From an uncultured Bacteroidia bacterium (GTDB lineage: Bacteria > Bacteroidota > Bacteroidia > Bacteroidales > UBA932), in the NCBI GenBank assembly GCA_902788095.1, contig CADAIT010000015.1, positions 1 to 61,324 of the forward strand: a stretch of 61,324 nucleotides of DNA. The letters are read 5' to 3'. Under the pieces are notes generated by a model, which ran no database searches, was not told the DNA's origin, and saw only the letters and a program-made list of their open reading frames with translations. Positions 7,380 through 41,230 of this stretch are shown here, piece by piece. Each line of letters begins with the position of its first letter. Position 1 is the first letter of the stretch. The position numbers and the translations under genes were made by a program.

Positions 7380-8732
7380 TCAGTTAATCGTCTTTCCGTT
7401 TATACCAAACTTCCCTCTTGTCCTGCTCAATTTGAATTCCACCGCGATGGTCAGGGCCACCTTGCACTTTTTTCCGCGGTGCCGGCCGGGCCGCCACTTG
7501 GGCGAAGCGGAAACCACACGCAACGCTTCCTCGTCCAGGGACTCATGTACGCCGCGCGCAATCTTCACATCCCGCACTTCCCCCCTCTCGTCAATGACAA
7601 AATCCACCAATACACGGCCCTGGATGCCATTCTCCTGGGCATACTTAGGATACTTCAGGTATTGATATACCCAACGCTCCATGAACGCGGAAGGGTCCGG
7701 AGAATTCAGGAACATGGGCTTGACATCCACGTCGCTGTAGGCATATACGCCAACCGGCGTCTTGGCATCCGGCGTCAACGTACTGTCCCGAAACAAGGGC
7801 CGGGGGCCGTTGGCAAGATGCTGCACGAAACTGTAAATATATTCCAGTTCCTTCTCCATGCCTTCGAAGTCGATGATGGCGTAGGTGTCGCGGCCCGTGC
7901 CGTGTTCCGGATATCGGCCCGTAGTGAACAGGACGGAAGGAATTTCCTTGTCGTAAAAGACGATATGGTCGCCGGGATAGGGCTGCTGGGCGGTGATTTC
8001 CGCCTGTATCGGCAGCAACTCGCCCTGCAGCGTACGGATAAGGGCGTTCAGGTCTCCATTGGAGGCGGTATAGGCCCAAAAACCATGTTCCGATGTGCCC
8101 AGCATATCCAGATTGACCATGGCGTCTATCTGGGCCACGTCGGCGGAAAAAGCCCGGTTCAGGAAATACCAGGAACCCGCGAAAGACTCGCAGGAACTGC
8201 CGAAGCCGACAAAGAGGATGCTCCGGCGGATGAGGGTGCGGGAATAGGACAGTTTTCTGGCCAGCTCCAGCATGAGGGCCATGCCGGAGGCATTGCCGTT
8301 GGCGCCGGAATACAGGCGCACCTGCTTTTCACCGTTTACCATCAGCGTATCCGTACCCAGGTTGTCCATCCGGGCTCCAATGACTATGTAATGCTGGTTC
8401 TGCGCCTTGTCCCATCCCTCCAGCAGACCGGTCACATTGCGTGAGGTAAGCGTATCGGCCCCCGCAGCCAAGCCGAAGGTGTTGCCGGCCTTCAGCAGGT
8501 CTATTCCACAGGCTTTCAATTGTTCCTCCAGGTATTCTGCCGCCATCCTTTCTCCCTCTGAACCGGCTTTGCGGCCTTCCAGCTGCGCACCGGACAGGTA
8601 GGCCACATGCTCCTTCAGGGCCCGGACGGTCTCGGAATCGTCCAGGTCCTCGAGGGGTGTCCGGTATTGGGCCCAGGCGGGGACGAGCGCAAGAAGCGCT
8701 GTCACGACACTAAAGAAAAAACGTCTCATCAT
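7380..8732 (-). CDS. Degenerate M28-family peptidase fused to a TonB C-terminal domain
   Basis: About 450 residues: a signal peptide (to AWAQ, residue 22), an M28 aminopeptidase-like domain (about 35-320) and a TonB energy-transducer C-terminal domain (about 345-440; [20 protein letters not shown] and the [12 protein letters not shown] turn). The M28 fold is clear, but key zinc and catalytic positions are changed. The usual HxD is ARMD (Arg121, Asp123), the bridging Asp of GANDNASG is Gly146, and the EE pair is Cys181-Glu182. Asp209 (NLDMLG) and a late His remain. It is probably not an active zinc peptidase. The start is ATGATG overlapping the TGA of the SPOR gene; an alternative start lies one codon in. 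Confidence 0.8.
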
Positions 8733-36354: not shown

Positions 36355-37854
36355 ATGATTAATACCGCCTACGTATCGGACAAGTACCAGTACACCATGG
36401 GAAAGTCCTATCTGGACTGTGGAAAGGAAAACCAGCTTGCCGTGTTCAACCTCTTCTATCGCAAGGCTCCGGAGAATAACAACTGGGCCGTGGTGAGCGG
36501 CACGGAGGAAGTGATAGAGATGGTCCTGAAACTGGGGACCGAACCGGAGGAATTCTACGAGAAATTCCTGCCCGGAGAGGAATACAAAGAGTTCCGCAAG
36601 TACCTGAGCACCATGAAGTTCACGGGGGACGTGTACACCATGCGCGAAGGGGAAATCGTATTTCCCAACCAACCCATCGTTACGGTGGTGGGACCGCTGG
36701 TGCAGGCCCAGGTGCTGGAAACGCCCATGCTGTGCATCCTGAATCACCAGATGGCCGTGGCCACCAAAGCCTCCCGCGTATGCCGTTCCACGAACAAGCC
36801 GGTCTCCGAGTTCGGTTCCCGCCGTGCGCATGGCCCCTGGGCTGCAGTGTATGGCGGCAAGGCGGCCCAGATTGCCGGCTGCGCCAGTTCTTCCAACATT
36901 CTCACGGGGGCATTCAACAACGTGCCTTCCACCGGCACCATGGCGCACAGCTTCATCACCTCCTACGGCAGCACCGTAGAGGGTGAGCATCAGGCATTTA
37001 CGGACTATATCAACACACACAGGGGAGAAAATATCATCCTGCTGATTGATACGTATGACACCCTGCGCTGCGGCATCAAGAACGCCATCCGTTCCTTCAA
37101 GGAAAACGGCATTGACGACAGTTATGCCCCCGGTTACGGCATCCGCCTGGACAGCGGGGACCTCGCGTACCTCTCGCAGGAAGTGCGCCGCACCCTGGAC
37201 GCCCACGGACTCAAGCGGTGCAAAATTTTCGCAACCAACGGTCTGGACGAATACCTCATCACCGACCTGGAGCGCCAGGGCGCCTGCATCGACAGTTATG
37301 GCGTAGGCGATGCCATCGCCACGTCCAAAGCCGCCCCTTGCTTCGGCAACGTATATAAGCTGGTGCAGATTGACGATGAACCCGTGCTCAAACGTTCGGA
37401 AGACAAAATCAAGCTCATCAACCCCGGTTTCCAGATAACCTGGCGCATATCGGCCCAGGACAAGGAAAAAGGGAATTCCATGGACGGCTATGTTTTCAAG
37501 GCCGACGTCACCTGCCTCCGCGGGGATGCCACCGACCTGGCCATCCAGCAAGGGAAGACGGTCACCGTCCGGGACGAGTACGACTCCTTCAAGAGCAAGA
37601 CTTTTGAGGAAGGAACCTACGACGCCCGTCCGCTGCAACTCCAGTCCATCAAAGCAGGCAAGCGTATCGCCCCGTACTATGACCTTCAGACCAAAAAGGC
37701 CTTCTATCAGGACAACCTCAACCATTTTTCACCGGCGGAGCGACGCCTGATCAACCCCCACTATTATAAAGTGGATATCTCCGACGCCCTTTACGACCTC
37801 AAGATGTCCATCATCGGAAAGCTGGTGAAGGAGATTGACTCCTTTGAGATTTAA
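36355..37854 (+). CDS. pncB: Nicotinate phosphoribosyltransferase
   Basis: A 499-residue enzyme joining nicotinate and PRPP to nicotinate mononucleotide (Preiss-Handler NAD salvage). The signature EFGSRRAHGPWAAVYGGKAAQIAGC (about 155-180) and GTMAHSFI with the conserved His are typical, as is IRLDSGDLAYLSQEVRRTLDAHG near 262-284. The N-terminus NTAYVSDKYQYTMGKSYL fits the family. It follows the nucleoside phosphorylase by 30 bases; both act in nucleotide salvage. It is the last gene before the inserted ATPase locus. Confidence 0.95.
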   Translation: MINTAYVSDKYQYTMGKSYLDCGKENQLAVFNLFYRKAPENNNWAVVSGTEEVIEMVLKLGTEPEEFYEKFLPGEEYKEFRKYLSTMKFTGDVYTMREGEIVFPNQPIVTVVGPLVQAQVLETPMLCILNHQMAVATKASRVCRSTNKPVSEFGSRRAHGPWAAVYGGKAAQIAGCASSSNILTGAFNNVPSTGTMAHSFITSYGSTVEGEHQAFTDYINTHRGENIILLIDTYDTLRCGIKNAIRSFKENGIDDSYAPGYGIRLDSGDLAYLSQEVRRTLDAHGLKRCKIFATNGLDEYLITDLERQGACIDSYGVGDAIATSKAAPCFGNVYKLVQIDDEPVLKRSEDKIKLINPGFQITWRISAQDKEKGNSMDGYVFKADVTCLRGDATDLAIQQGKTVTVRDEYDSFKSKTFEEGTYDARPLQLQSIKAGKRIAPYYDLQTKKAFYQDNLNHFSPAERRLINPHYYKVDISDALYDLKMSIIGKLVKEIDSFEI

Positions 37855-37956
37855 GAGGGTATTACGAAGCTCTTCCAAGGACTGACAGTTGCCGGAAGGA
37901 AGCCGTCGAGACAAGTTTCAAGCCGGCTGCACTTGCATATCCCATAAAAACTTCTT

Positions 37957-37993
37957 ACATTGCGAAAAATTTCGCAACGAAAATTTTCGCAAT
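37957..37993 (+). repeat. 37-base direct repeat R1, ending at the ATPase start codon
   Basis: Starts ACATTGCGAAAAATTTCGCA and ends TTTTCGCAAT, immediately followed by ATG. It contains TTGCGAAA-AA-TTTCGCAA and CGAAAATTTTCG palindromes. R2 at 39056-39092 matches at 32 of 37 bases by direct comparison. Confidence 0.85.
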
Positions 37994-39055
37994 ATGGATA
38001 ATCCGTTCAAATTCGGCACCGTCGTAGAAGGAGCATACTTCACAGACAGGGTAGATGAAAGAGCTTTTCTTACCCAAATTCTGCATAGCCCCAACCATGC
38101 CATCCTGATTAGTCCGCGCCGCTATGGGAAAAGTTCCCTCGTTGCCGAAACCCTGAGATCGGAAAAAAGAGAATCCATTTCCCTGAATATGCAGGCCGTA
38201 ACCAGTTCCCTCAAACTGGCCGAGGCCTTATACAGGAGATTCTTTTCCCTCCACCCCATAGAAAAGGCCAGGCATTATCTGTCGCACCTGAGGATTATCC
38301 CTACCTTGTCCATCAACCCCGTCTCCGGAAGCCCGGAGGTATCGTTTCTACCCAACGTAAATGCGCAGGTTGTATTGGAAGATGTCTTTGCCATGCTCGA
38401 AAAAGCAGGACAAAAGAAAAAGCTGATAGTAGTACTGGACGAATTCCAGGAAATCCTGCAGATAGAAAAAGGACTGGACAAACTTCTGCGTTCCATCATG
38501 CAGGAACAGCAGAACATCAACTACATTTTGATGGGCAGCCAGGAAGACATGATGAAAAAAATCTTCCTCAGGAAAAAATCGGCCTTTTACCACTTCGGAA
38601 ACGTCATCCACCTGGACAGGATACCGGAGGCCGACTTCAAACAGTACATCGAAGACAGGTTGCCGACAAAAAACCGGGGCAAAGGAATCTCGGACGACAT
38701 TCTCTCCTTCACGGCTTGCCATCCTTACTACACACAGCAACTCGCTTTCCAAGTTTGGTTCGAACTGCAGCAGGGAGCGGAAATACCTTTATCGGTCCCA
38801 ACAGCCATCGAGCATATCATCCAGGCCCATGACTTTGACTATTCCCGCTTGTGGGAATCCATGAACAGGACAAACCGTCTTGTACTGCTGAAACTTGCCG
38901 ATAACGACAAAGCGCCCATGGAAAATCCGGAACTTCCCCCCAGCACCATTTTCAGTGCCCTGAAACGGCTGGTCAGTGCCGGAATACTGATTAAAAACGG
39001 GAAATACGTCTATGACGACCCCTTCTTCAAACGCTGGGTAAAAAGAATAATTTAG
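37994..39055 (+). CDS. AAA ATPase (COG1672-type predicted ATPase), repeat-bounded
   Basis: A 353-residue P-loop ATPase of the MNS/archaeal-ATPase group common in Bacteroidetes. Walker A is SPRRYGKSSL (about 38-47), Walker B LIVVLDEFQEIL (about 144-155), then MGSQEDMMKKIF (about 180-191), and a C-terminal winged-helix-like part (about 275-353) ending in VYDDPFFKRWVKR. No nuclease, transposase or phage gene is adjacent. G+C is about 47% in a sampled 60-base line, against about 57% around it, suggesting later acquisition. The CDS fits exactly between R1 (directly before ATG) and R2 (directly after TAG). The substrate is unknown; earlier TTG starts are in-frame but would read through R1. Confidence 0.88.
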   Translation: MDNPFKFGTVVEGAYFTDRVDERAFLTQILHSPNHAILISPRRYGKSSLVAETLRSEKRESISLNMQAVTSSLKLAEALYRRFFSLHPIEKARHYLSHLRIIPTLSINPVSGSPEVSFLPNVNAQVVLEDVFAMLEKAGQKKKLIVVLDEFQEILQIEKGLDKLLRSIMQEQQNINYILMGSQEDMMKKIFLRKKSAFYHFGNVIHLDRIPEADFKQYIEDRLPTKNRGKGISDDILSFTACHPYYTQQLAFQVWFELQQGAEIPLSVPTAIEHIIQAHDFDYSRLWESMNRTNRLVLLKLADNDKAPMENPELPPSTIFSALKRLVSAGILIKNGKYVYDDPFFKRWVKRII

Positions 39056-39092
39056 ACATTGCGAAAAAAGTCGCAACGAAAAAAATCGCAAT
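39056..39092 (+). repeat. 37-base direct repeat R2, starting right after the ATPase stop codon
   Basis: Begins ACATTGCGAAAAAAGTCGCA and ends AATCGCAAT. It differs from R1 at five positions (14, 15, 28, 29, 30), all within the spacers between TTGCGAAA/TCGCAA half-sites. The helicase ATG follows 5 bases later. Confidence 0.85.
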
Positions 39093-39097
39093 CAACT

Positions 39098-41230
39098 ATG
39101 ACGGACATTTTCCAGGGACTGAATTCGCGCCAGCGGGAGGCCGTAGAGGCCACCGAGGGCCGCATCCGCGTGGTAGCGGGCGCCGGGACGGGCAAAACCA
39201 AGGCCCTGACGCACCGCTATGCCTACTTGGTGAATGTCCTGGGCATCGACCCGGCCAACCTGCTGTGCCTGACCTTCACCAACAAGGCCGCGGCCGAGAT
39301 GCGCAACCGCATCGCCGCCATGGTGCAGAGCGGAGACTACAACGACTTCGTGTGCACCCTGCACGGCTTCTGCGTCAAGTTCCTGCGCAAGGAAATCTAC
39401 CGCATCGGCTTCCCCAAATCCTTCACCGTGCTGGACGAGGAAGACAGCAAGGCCATCGCCAAACAGGCCATGGACGAACTGGGGCTCAAGCGCACGGAAA
39501 AGACGGTGAAGCAGTTCCTGGACGCCATCGGGGCCGAAAAAGCCCTCAACGGCTACATCCAGACCTATATGCTGCCGGGCAGTGTGGTCTCCGACGAGAT
39601 GCGCCGCACTTCCCGCCTGGCCGCCTACGTGAGCCGGCAGATGAAAAACTACGCGCTGGACTTCGACGACCTGATGAACGTGACCAAGTACATCCTGGAC
39701 CATTTTCCGGACGCCTGCGAGGAGTGGCAGACCAAACTGAACTACATCATGGTGGACGAGGCCCAGGACTGCAACCTGGACGACTGGGACCTCATCGACC
39801 GCCTCAGCGCCAAGCACCGGAACCTTTTTATCGTAGGGGACCCGGACCAGGCCATCTACGAGTGGCGCGGCGCCCGGCCGGACCTTTTTGTCAATTTCGC
39901 GGCCGACAAAACCATCATCCTGGACGAGAACTACCGCTCTACGCCCCGCATCCTGGACGTAGCCAACAGCGTGATTTCCAACAACCAGAACCGCATCCCC
40001 AAGGACCTTTTCACCCGAAAGGCTGAGGGCAAGGCCGTCATTCATTTCCACGGCAAAAGCGAGAAGGAGGAGACGGAGTGGATTGTGACGCAAATCAAAC
40101 GCCTGCTGGACAGCGGCGCCCGCGTGAGCGACATCGCCATCCTCTACCGCAGCAGCTACCTCTCCCGCGCCCTGGAGCAAGCGCTGCTGAACGCGCACCT
40201 GGAATACACCATCTGGGGCGGCACGCGCTTTTTCGAGCGGCGGGAAATCAAAGACGCGCTCAGTTATTTACGGCTGGTCAGCAACCAGGACGACGACCTC
40301 TCCTTCGAGCGCATCATCAACGTACCTTCCCGCAAGCTGGGACGCAAGTTCCTGGACGGCATAAGGGCCCTGGCCGACGAAAAGGGCATCTCGCTCTACA
40401 GCGCCTTGCAACTGAACGGGGACGCCAAATCGGCCCCCTTTGTGGAACTTATCGAGGACGCCAAGCAGTTTGCGCTGGAAAACCGGGTGAGCGACCTGCT
40501 GAACCGCCTGCTGGACCGTTCCGGCTACAAGAAAATGGTGCGCGAAGACCAGGACGAAGACCGTCTGGAGAACCTGGACGAGCTTCTTTCCAGCATCCGT
40601 TTCTACGAGAGCGTCCGCACGCCGGAAGAGAGCACGCTGGCGGATTACCTGCAGGACATCGCCCTTTACACCAACGACGACCACCGCAAGGACACCCCTA
40701 CCCTCAAACTGATGACCATCCACCAGGCCAAGGGGCTGGAATTCCCTTACGTCTTTGTCACAGGCCTTTCGGAGGGCATTTTCCCCAACATGCGCAGCAT
40801 CCGCGAGGGGAAGAAGAACGGCGAAGAAGAGGAGCGGCGGCTCATGTATGTAGCCATCACCCGCGCGGAGAAAGCGCTCTTCCTTACCGAGAGCGAGGGC
40901 TTCAACATTTCCACCAAGATGGCCAAATACCCGTCCCGTTTCCTGGCGGAAATCAAGCAGAATCTGGTGGTGACGGAAGGCGTTGTACCGGAGGAACTGT
41001 GGAAGGGAACCCGGAGCCTCACCCATGTGCTGGACCAGGAGGACTTCAGTGCCGAACGCGCCGCCTACCAGTCCCCCTTCCATGTGGGAGACATCGTCAC
41101 GCATGCCGTATTTGGCGAAGGCGTCATCGTAGCCGCCAACAAAGACTTCACCAGCTTTGACGTCCAGTTCGACTCCGGTGCCATCCGCACCCTCCGCGCC
41201 AGTTTCATTACACTTGCGGACCTGCCGTAA
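39098..41230 (+). CDS. UvrD/PcrA-type superfamily 1A DNA helicase
   Basis: A 710-residue ATP-dependent 3'-5' helicase of repair and replication. Motif I is VVAGAGTGKTKAL (about 25-37), motif II VDEAQD near 218, motif III GDPDQAIYEWRGA, then DENYRSTPRIL, and motifs V-VI LMTIHQAKGLEFPYVFVTGLSEG and RLMYVAITRAEKAL in the C-terminal third. The C-terminal tail ends in a Tudor-like fold region (HAVFGEGVIVAANKDFTSFDVQFDSG). The start ATG at 39098 is 5 bases after R2; the frame upstream reads through R2 and is unlikely. Its own promoter may have been altered by the inserted ATPase unit. It overlaps the convergent RND gene by 23 bases. Confidence 0.95.
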   Translation: MTDIFQGLNSRQREAVEATEGRIRVVAGAGTGKTKALTHRYAYLVNVLGIDPANLLCLTFTNKAAAEMRNRIAAMVQSGDYNDFVCTLHGFCVKFLRKEIYRIGFPKSFTVLDEEDSKAIAKQAMDELGLKRTEKTVKQFLDAIGAEKALNGYIQTYMLPGSVVSDEMRRTSRLAAYVSRQMKNYALDFDDLMNVTKYILDHFPDACEEWQTKLNYIMVDEAQDCNLDDWDLIDRLSAKHRNLFIVGDPDQAIYEWRGARPDLFVNFAADKTIILDENYRSTPRILDVANSVISNNQNRIPKDLFTRKAEGKAVIHFHGKSEKEETEWIVTQIKRLLDSGARVSDIAILYRSSYLSRALEQALLNAHLEYTIWGGTRFFERREIKDALSYLRLVSNQDDDLSFERIINVPSRKLGRKFLDGIRALADEKGISLYSALQLNGDAKSAPFVELIEDAKQFALENRVSDLLNRLLDRSGYKKMVREDQDEDRLENLDELLSSIRFYESVRTPEESTLADYLQDIALYTNDDHRKDTPTLKLMTIHQAKGLEFPYVFVTGLSEGIFPNMRSIREGKKNGEEEERRLMYVAITRAEKALFLTESEGFNISTKMAKYPSRFLAEIKQNLVVTEGVVPEELWKGTRSLTHVLDQEDFSAERAAYQSPFHVGDIVTHAVFGEGVIVAANKDFTSFDVQFDSGAIRTLRASFITLADLP

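Follow-up and report, generated by a model that had tools for sequence, protein, structure and literature searches.

The locus

The window, a 61,324-nt stretch of DNA from an uncultured Bacteroidia bacterium, carries an ATPase gene that lies between pncB and a helicase gene and is bounded by two direct repeats, R1 and R2. The features of this region are as follows.

36355-37854, plus strand: pncB (nicotinate phosphoribosyltransferase; Pfam NAPRTase domains), upstream of and outside the unit
37933-37962, plus strand: promoter-like stretch, with TTG at 37933-37935, 20 bases, and TACATTGCG from 37956, running into R1
37957-37993, plus strand: R1, two 15-nt units (37963-37977 and 37978-37992), abutting the ATPase ATG at 37994; candidate cognate array (operator)
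37994-39055, plus strand: AAA/P-loop ATPase of 353 aa (Pfam AAA_14; Orc1/Cdc6-like predicted fold)
38867-39049, plus strand: predicted C-terminal winged helix of the ATPase, residues 292-352 (AlphaFold2 secondary structure, read by eye)
39056-39092, plus strand: R2, two 15-nt units (39062-39076 and 39077-39091), separating the ATPase stop codon from the helicase start codon
39098-41230, plus strand: PcrA/UvrD-type helicase (Pfam UvrD-helicase and UvrD_C)

An earlier note on this DNA had described the repeats as abutting the gene exactly, and they do, R1 ending one base before the ATG at 37994 and R2 starting one base after the TAG that ends at 39055. It was equally right that R1 and R2 are identical at 32 of 37 positions, that R2 ends 5 bases ahead of the helicase ATG at 39098, and that the G+C content of the ATPase gene (0.48) is lower than that of its neighbours pncB (0.56) and the helicase gene (0.60). 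The same note saw the repeats as built from selected half-sites, which is correct in part. The five positions at which R1 and R2 differ (TT/AG and TTT/AAA) do all lie in A/T-rich spacers, but TTTCGCAA is intact in R1 alone, with R2 retaining TCGCAA, and a pair of tandem 15-nt units, in R1 CGAAAAATTTCGCAA and CGAAAATTTTCGCAA, is the better description of each repeat. Dyad symmetry is near-perfect in R1 (30/35 positions) and much weaker in R2 (20/35).

When up to 3 mismatches were allowed, the pattern TTGCGAAANNNNTCGCAACGAAANNNNTCGCAA matched only R1 and R2 in the window and nothing in 100 shuffles of it. Across the genome assembly (2.16 Mb, 83% complete), the core CGAAANNNNTCGNAACGAAA with at most 1 mismatch likewise has no site besides R1 and R2. 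The shuffles and the genome-wide core search together rule out a chance origin of the repeats, and the confinement of the core to these two sites means that no wider regulon is seen in this genome. The promoter consensus of Bacteroidota is TTG / TAnnTTTG. Where the window has TACATTGCG, most close relatives of the ATPase gene read TATATTGCG, and the full TATATTTG is found in several relatives of 46-52% identity.

The ATPase and its predicted fold

The ATPase scores 35 bits against Pfam AAA_14 (cut-off 27) and 29.4 bits against ATPase_2, just under the cut-off of 33.2. Its Pfam matches include neither a methyltransferase nor a nuclease domain, no relative of solved structure was found by sequence search, and the PADLOC defence models yielded nothing beyond weak PDC-S01 matches (2e-6 at best, the best stretch being residues 26-78). 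An AlphaFold2 model built from a 15-sequence alignment (pLDDT 87.7) consists of a P-loop core and a C-terminal winged helix, in which residues 316-328 form the candidate recognition helix and residues 332-340 the wing strands. S317, T318, S321, K324 and R325 are invariant across the 15 homologues.

In a Foldseek search the model matched 2qen (3.9e-13) and 2fna (7.9e-13) best, over 371-377 columns with a TM score of 0.59-0.60 and an rmsd of 6.7-7.0, followed by the DNA-bound Orc1/Cdc6 structures 2v1u (7.7e-9) and 2qby (1.9e-8). The NCBIfam orc1/cdc6 model TIGR02928 gave 13.7 bits, far from its cut-off of 181.3, indicating that the window ATPase is Orc1-like in fold and is not a member of that family by sequence.

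Close relatives and the distribution of the repeats

Homologues of at least 60% identity are present in ten genomes of the genus, the window included; all are draft genomes, and every named record among them is a MAG or an uncultured assembly. R1 stands directly 5' of the start codon in all ten (with one extra base in G157). R2 follows the stop codon in seven (G000, G325, G358, G182, G192, G082 and G157) and is lacking in the other three (G119, G163 and G080). In G358 and G182, R1 and R2 are identical over a 33-nt core. Homologues of 46-52% identity have the same kind of array, many of them with a concerted change to TTACGAAA/TCGTAA, and those read carry R1 only, except for L106 (from a MAG labelled Victivallales), which has a second array about 50 nt past the stop codon. 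As a separate observation, two divergent family members adjoin each other in the same orientation in G158:C5 and in G083:C77.

When 400 genomes were scanned for the array with at most 2 mismatches, 36 matched, and the same scan with the pattern written backward matched 4 (G088, G098, G279 and G306), so several of the 2-mismatch matches are at chance level. An ATPase homologue adjoins the array in 22 of the 36 genomes, and three others have only an ATPase remnant (recognised by eye after R in G096 and G004, a partial match in G186). A lone R with 0-1 mismatch and no ATPase in the fetched flanks was found in five further genomes (G331, G169, G155, G376 and G055). The remaining six matches have 2 mismatches each and several of them are chance-like. 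In whole-genome homologue searches of the five (E 1e-6; drafts, 73-96% complete), no ATPase was found in G331 or G155, and only distant homologues of 26-33% identity in G169, G376 and G055. A lone R in five genomes is not explained by an operator alone unless the loss of the ATPase was recent. In two copies of R, the R2 of G157 (L102) and the lone R of G169 (L118), the centre is inverted (CGTTGCG for CGCAACG) with the arms kept.

Viral contigs hold no relative by the R pattern or by protein, in a single-protein scan for close relatives, and plasmid and phage records hold distant relatives only (on 15 plasmid and 2 phage records). Carriage as phage or plasmid cargo is rejected on these grounds. 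Among seven plasmid-borne homologues whose upstream regions were read, the Vibrio one has a clear 14-nt array, the Parabacteroides one a 15-nt repeat further upstream, and five an unclear array or none. The Vibrio plasmid (L220, NZ_CP072682.1) lies outside the phylum, and its array consists of CTAAATACTAAACT repeated 5' of the start codon.

The helicase junction

The same R1-ATPase-R2-helicase block is found in G325, where 4 nt separate R2 from the helicase start codon. When the window and G325 are compared, R1 is identical at 35/37 and R2 at 34/37 positions, whereas third codon positions are 52% identical in the ATPase gene and 70% in the helicase gene. Within G325, R1 and R2 agree at 31/37 positions; in both genomes the agreement of R1 with R2 is thus below that of R2 with R2 across genomes. 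The conservation of each repeat against divergent third codon positions suggests that R1 and R2 are separately held by selection. With respect to pncB and an RND transporter gene (named by eye), the ATPase-helicase block as a whole has opposite orientations in the window and in G325 (L096), and pncB flanks it on the opposite side in G325. A pncA-like gene, also named by eye, lies between pncB and the helicase gene in some relatives and is not seen at the window junction.

The earlier note had proposed that a single copy of the repeat at this junction in strains without the ATPase would support mobility. Such a lone R, preceded by an R1-type flank, does stand in G331 and G169, about 175-180 nt 5' of the orthologous helicase gene, but the upstream genes differ from that of the window, so that these sites may be the scar of a loss and not a virgin target. 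The approximately 175-180 nt between the lone R and the helicase gene are absent from the window. No R is present in the 330 nt shown before the helicase gene in G363, and G141 and G019 also have no R at this place.

The helicase orthologue has a TATATTTG promoter of its own in G331, G169 and G363, which is absent in the window and in G325, and the window helicase is now probably read from the ATPase promoter. The suggestion that the repeats tether the expression of both genes can be kept for these two genomes, in which R2 lies 4-5 bases ahead of a helicase gene that has lost its own promoter, but it does not extend to the other five carriers of R2, where no gene is seen to start directly after R2.

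An array with a protein-specific period

Beyond the close relatives, 132 homologue loci were collected, of which 125 were kept and reduced to 62 representatives (<70% identity), leaving out incomplete or short proteins (<=330 aa) and loci with <100 nt upstream. The strongest self-match in the 125 nt upstream of the start codon is at 15 nt in 29/62 and at 14 nt in 15/62 of these homologues (44/62 together), compared with 10/102 control genes (4 at 15 nt, 6 at 14 nt; Fisher p 5e-16). The mean lag-15 score of the 62 homologues is 9.74, against 3.82 in shuffles. The unit sequence varies from gene to gene, with TTACTAA, TTGTAACA, GGTCCACC and TCCACAATTTTGTGG types.

The period follows an N-terminal motif of the protein. 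In this set, which comes mostly from the genus of the window, a score threshold called 45 arrays and left 17 uncalled: FTDR-type proteins have 25 arrays at 15 nt, 1 at 14 nt and 6 uncalled, FCDR-type proteins have 15 at 14 nt, none at 15 nt and 5 uncalled, and proteins with other motif types have four at 15 nt. The 15-nt period of R1 is the one shared by FTDR-type homologues. L112 breaks the rule. The period changes only twice on a tree built from the ATPase domain alone, against a mean of 13.4 changes when periods were shuffled, with 0/500 shuffles as low. The period was then predicted beforehand for genomes elsewhere in the phylum, where 31 distinct loci were kept after duplicate places and short-upstream loci had been dropped. 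All 22 callable loci obey the rule, with 13 FC types at 14 nt (a single genus, g59, contributing 5) and 9 others at 15 nt, and 9/31 could not be called; among these loci, L260 reads FCDR although the script matched YYGR. In family f34 of the same phylum, five members of FCGR type (L249, L250 and L255-L257) have frames of >1300 codons, the ATPase apparently being fused to a long C-terminal region, and three of the five have 14-nt arrays.

The sequence of the array follows the protein as well. Array similarity tracks the identity of the recognition helix beyond that of the ATPase domain (partial r 0.36, p 0.0005, n=45, 2000 permutations), in a Mantel permutation that removes phylogeny incompletely. 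In the set of 62, in the genome-wide core search and in the phylum set alike, the array lies at the gene's own promoter and is specific to the gene. Since both the period and the sequence are specific to the protein, the ATPase itself is likely to be the reader of the array. A different transcription factor could bind the arrays instead, and the persistence of R in genomes that yielded no close ATPase would fit such a protein, the more so as the binding of the array by the ATPase is itself deduced from comparison. The units of paralogues differ, yet their period and sequence follow the ATPase and its winged helix, and R has only two sites in its genome, which together make a separate factor improbable.

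TAnnTTTG is found in the promoter window of 35/45 called arrays, and the arrays end anywhere from 38 nt past the start of this element to 29 nt before it, 19/35 of them at least 3 nt before. The arrays thus overlap or adjoin the core promoter, and many fall outside the transcript to be expected; their varied position indicates that the sign of regulation may vary between family members. This placement bears on two further explanations. R might act in RNA, as a leader hairpin or as a terminator after the stop codon; R1 comes after a -7-like element and would be transcribed, and it has a strong dyad by sequence symmetry. However, the 19 arrays that end upstream of TAnnTTTG would be outside the RNA while keeping the same period, and an action in RNA is hardly plausible. 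Alternatively, the unit could be a vestigial or active mini-replicator integrated in the chromosome, with an initiator and its iterons, like archaeal orc1/cdc6-origin pairs. The Orc1/Cdc6-like predicted fold is in keeping with this idea, as is the presence of one private array per initiator-like gene, which recalls the origin-specific pairing of cdc6 genes described for Haloarcula hispanica. But the arrays lie on or beside promoter elements, up to several paralogues are scattered over a genome, and the curated orc1/cdc6 model is far from matched, so that we regard a replicator as very improbable.

The best reading of R1 is therefore as the private operator of an Orc1/Cdc6-like ATPase, with R2 as a second copy, insofar as sequence comparison can assign such a role. 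We found no description of arrays at the promoters of this ATPase family in the titles and abstract openings that searches of PMC papers returned, a scope outside which most subscription-journal papers fall.

Mobility of the gene

The earlier note had also suggested that the unit may be mobile, with the repeats as its ends or recombination sites. The first half of this view is partly borne out for the gene, which, judging from comparison of loci, appears to move on an evolutionary time scale. The ten close elements occupy eight loci, and in the 2-5 kb of flank compared (less at contig ends), neighbours are shared only between the window and G325 and between G119 and G163, beyond paralogues of 43% identity; to this are added the lone R in five genomes and the seven family members with long flanking duplications. 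The second half is not borne out: three of the ten close relatives and the 46-52% relatives read, L106 excepted, carry R1 only, and no target duplication coincides with R.

The search for flanking duplications covered 70 distinct family loci, each flanked by at least 600 nt on both sides; phylum-row proteins of at least 420 aa had been dropped from this set. Direct flanking repeats of at least 30 nt are present in 14/70 of these loci, against 2/91 control genes (p 0.0002). In 8 of the 14 the repeat is a second array and in 7 it is a longer duplication of neighbouring sequence, G182 having both. These neighbour duplications (L026/G182, L048, L051, L022, L024, L108 and L245) are 43-362 nt long (p 0.04 vs controls). 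In 6/7 the gene has a longer neighbour ORF as one flank and, opposite it, a copy of that ORF's 3' end; L108 has a 5' end instead. The window locus has no such flanking duplication. The 43-nt duplication in G182 is weak when taken alone, because another copy of the gene tail is present elsewhere in G182 and no clean empty site for this element was found: a DNA match of 72-80% identity exists in six other genomes, but the sequence that follows the gene there is unrelated.

The two control genes with matches are RhuM-family genes (Pfam Virulence_RhuM) in L114 and L115, from Prevotella-type MAGs. They are flanked by direct repeats of 48 nt and 125 nt and lie close to R copies with ATPase remnants, and the L115 gene has a weak Bro-N match. 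Other one-gene inserts may share these RhuM/R sites.

R1 and R2 could nevertheless be cassette ends or recombination sites, with recombination of R1 with R2 excising the ATPase gene and leaving one R, and integration at a lone R restoring R-ATPase-R. This would account for the placement of R2 right after the stop codon in seven of ten close relatives, for the 33-nt core that R1 and R2 share unchanged in G358 and G182, for the lone R with an R1-type flank before the same helicase gene in G331 and G169, and for the spread of ten elements over eight loci; the inverted centres in the R2 of G157 and the lone R of G169 would fit as well. Outside the genus, second arrays of other sequence lie 3' of the stop codon in L269 (direct) and L245 (best matched inverted). 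A serine recombinase gene (Pfam Resolvase, 1.5e-29) is present on the minus strand of L097 (G358) at 8042-8713, about 2 kb downstream of an R-ATPase-R element with identical R1 and R2, so the idea of a recombination site is not dead. Against it, 64/77 family loci (redundant ones included) have no second array at a score of 15, and 29/31 loci of the phylum set are under that score (for six of these the downstream sequence is missing). Neighbour sequence, and not R, makes up the long duplications around family genes. A crude motif screen for recombinases and transposases, which covered 71 neighbouring ORFs at the ten close elements and at three sites with a lone R, flagged the G358 resolvase alone; a minority of the remaining ORFs were searched against a family library. 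R1 and R2 have been kept distinct in the window and in G325. We consider cassette ends unlikely for the R-bounded forms. R as a general element end is ruled out as a feature of the family, most members tested having no second array.

A wider hypothesis can be put forward tentatively, although we hold it to be rather doubtful: a phylum-wide family of single-gene mobile elements, in which each ATPase and its private array co-diversify so that each copy recognises itself only, which spread without a transposase by insertion with long target duplication, and whose R-bounded forms can be reduced to a lone R.

A proposed role for the ATPase and its array

The finding is real and more general than the first reading of this one locus could reveal. 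The suggestion that the gene is self-regulated is strongly supported by comparison, an array being widespread at the promoters of these ATPases with a period and sequence that follow the protein. We therefore hold it probable that the unit is an Orc1/Cdc6-like ATPase gene with a private array, whose protein would bind the array and control its own promoter. The array, the period rule, its co-variation with the winged helix, the conservation, the fold and the change of locus are results of computation; from them we infer binding, autoregulation, titration, coupling and the manner in which the gene moves.

In the proposed mechanism, the C-terminal winged helix would bind the units of R1, and neighbouring ATPase protomers would sit on units 15 nt apart, or 14 nt apart in the sister subfamily. 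The array-bound ATPase would then control its own promoter, most simply by repression. R2 would be a second array for the same protein, which could titrate it, bridge to R1 or act on the helicase gene. In the window and in G325, where it lies between the ATPase gene and a promoterless helicase gene, R2 may tie the helicase to the ATPase. In other genomes, further binding or titration of the protein is the likelier role of this array. The ATPase gene, together with its promoter-operator, would move between loci as a one-gene insert, mostly without R2.

If this is true, a testable molecular role could be given to a large set of bacterial "ATP-binding proteins", as DNA-binding autoregulators with an Orc1-like fold, and a code would link the recognition helix to the array sequence. 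The sharp 14- versus 15-nt rule offers a handle on the spacing of AAA proteins along DNA, and the one-gene inserts with neighbour duplications would make the old idea of transposase-free gene mobility testable in a second gene family.

Comparison with known systems

The best whole-chain fold matches are the archaeal proteins SSO1545 (2fna) and PABY2304 (2qen) of Pfam ATPase_2/AAA_14, targets of 350-352 residues with 16-17% sequence identity to the window ATPase. We know of no operator array for SSO1545 or PABY2304.

Archaeal Orc1/Cdc6 proteins with their origin recognition boxes share with the window family an AAA domain joined to a winged helix, a gene paired with its own repeats and, in one case, downstream repeats. 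Origin-specific cdc6 pairs and an ORB-rich region downstream of cdc6E, to which titration is ascribed, are described for Haloarcula hispanica (PMC3936714). Separately, Orc1-2 is presented as a transcription regulator (PMC9738581). The window family differs in that it is bacterial, has many paralogues with unrelated arrays and tight 14/15-nt tandems at its own promoters, and gives no sign of a replication function.

Iteron-controlled plasmid initiators also bind tandem repeats at their own promoter, with a longer iteron spacing. They have a different protein fold from the window ATPase, for which no replicon is shown here.

The insertion of restriction-modification genes with long target duplication was reportedly described by Nobusato et al. 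in 2000. The duplications span tens to hundreds of bases in the account of PMC3031569, and the ATPase genes were apparently inserted with neighbour duplications of the same order. Here, by contrast, a single ATPase gene is concerned, with duplications in 7/70 family loci.

IniR, a protein of 818 aa with an SSO1545-like ATPase domain and a MalT-like domain, acts on iniBAC (PMC5760070). Its C-terminal DNA-binding domain differs from the predicted one of the window ATPase, and the portion of text covered makes no mention of a tandem array. IniR resembles the proposed autoregulator in placing an SSO1545-like ATPase domain within a DNA-binding transcription regulator.
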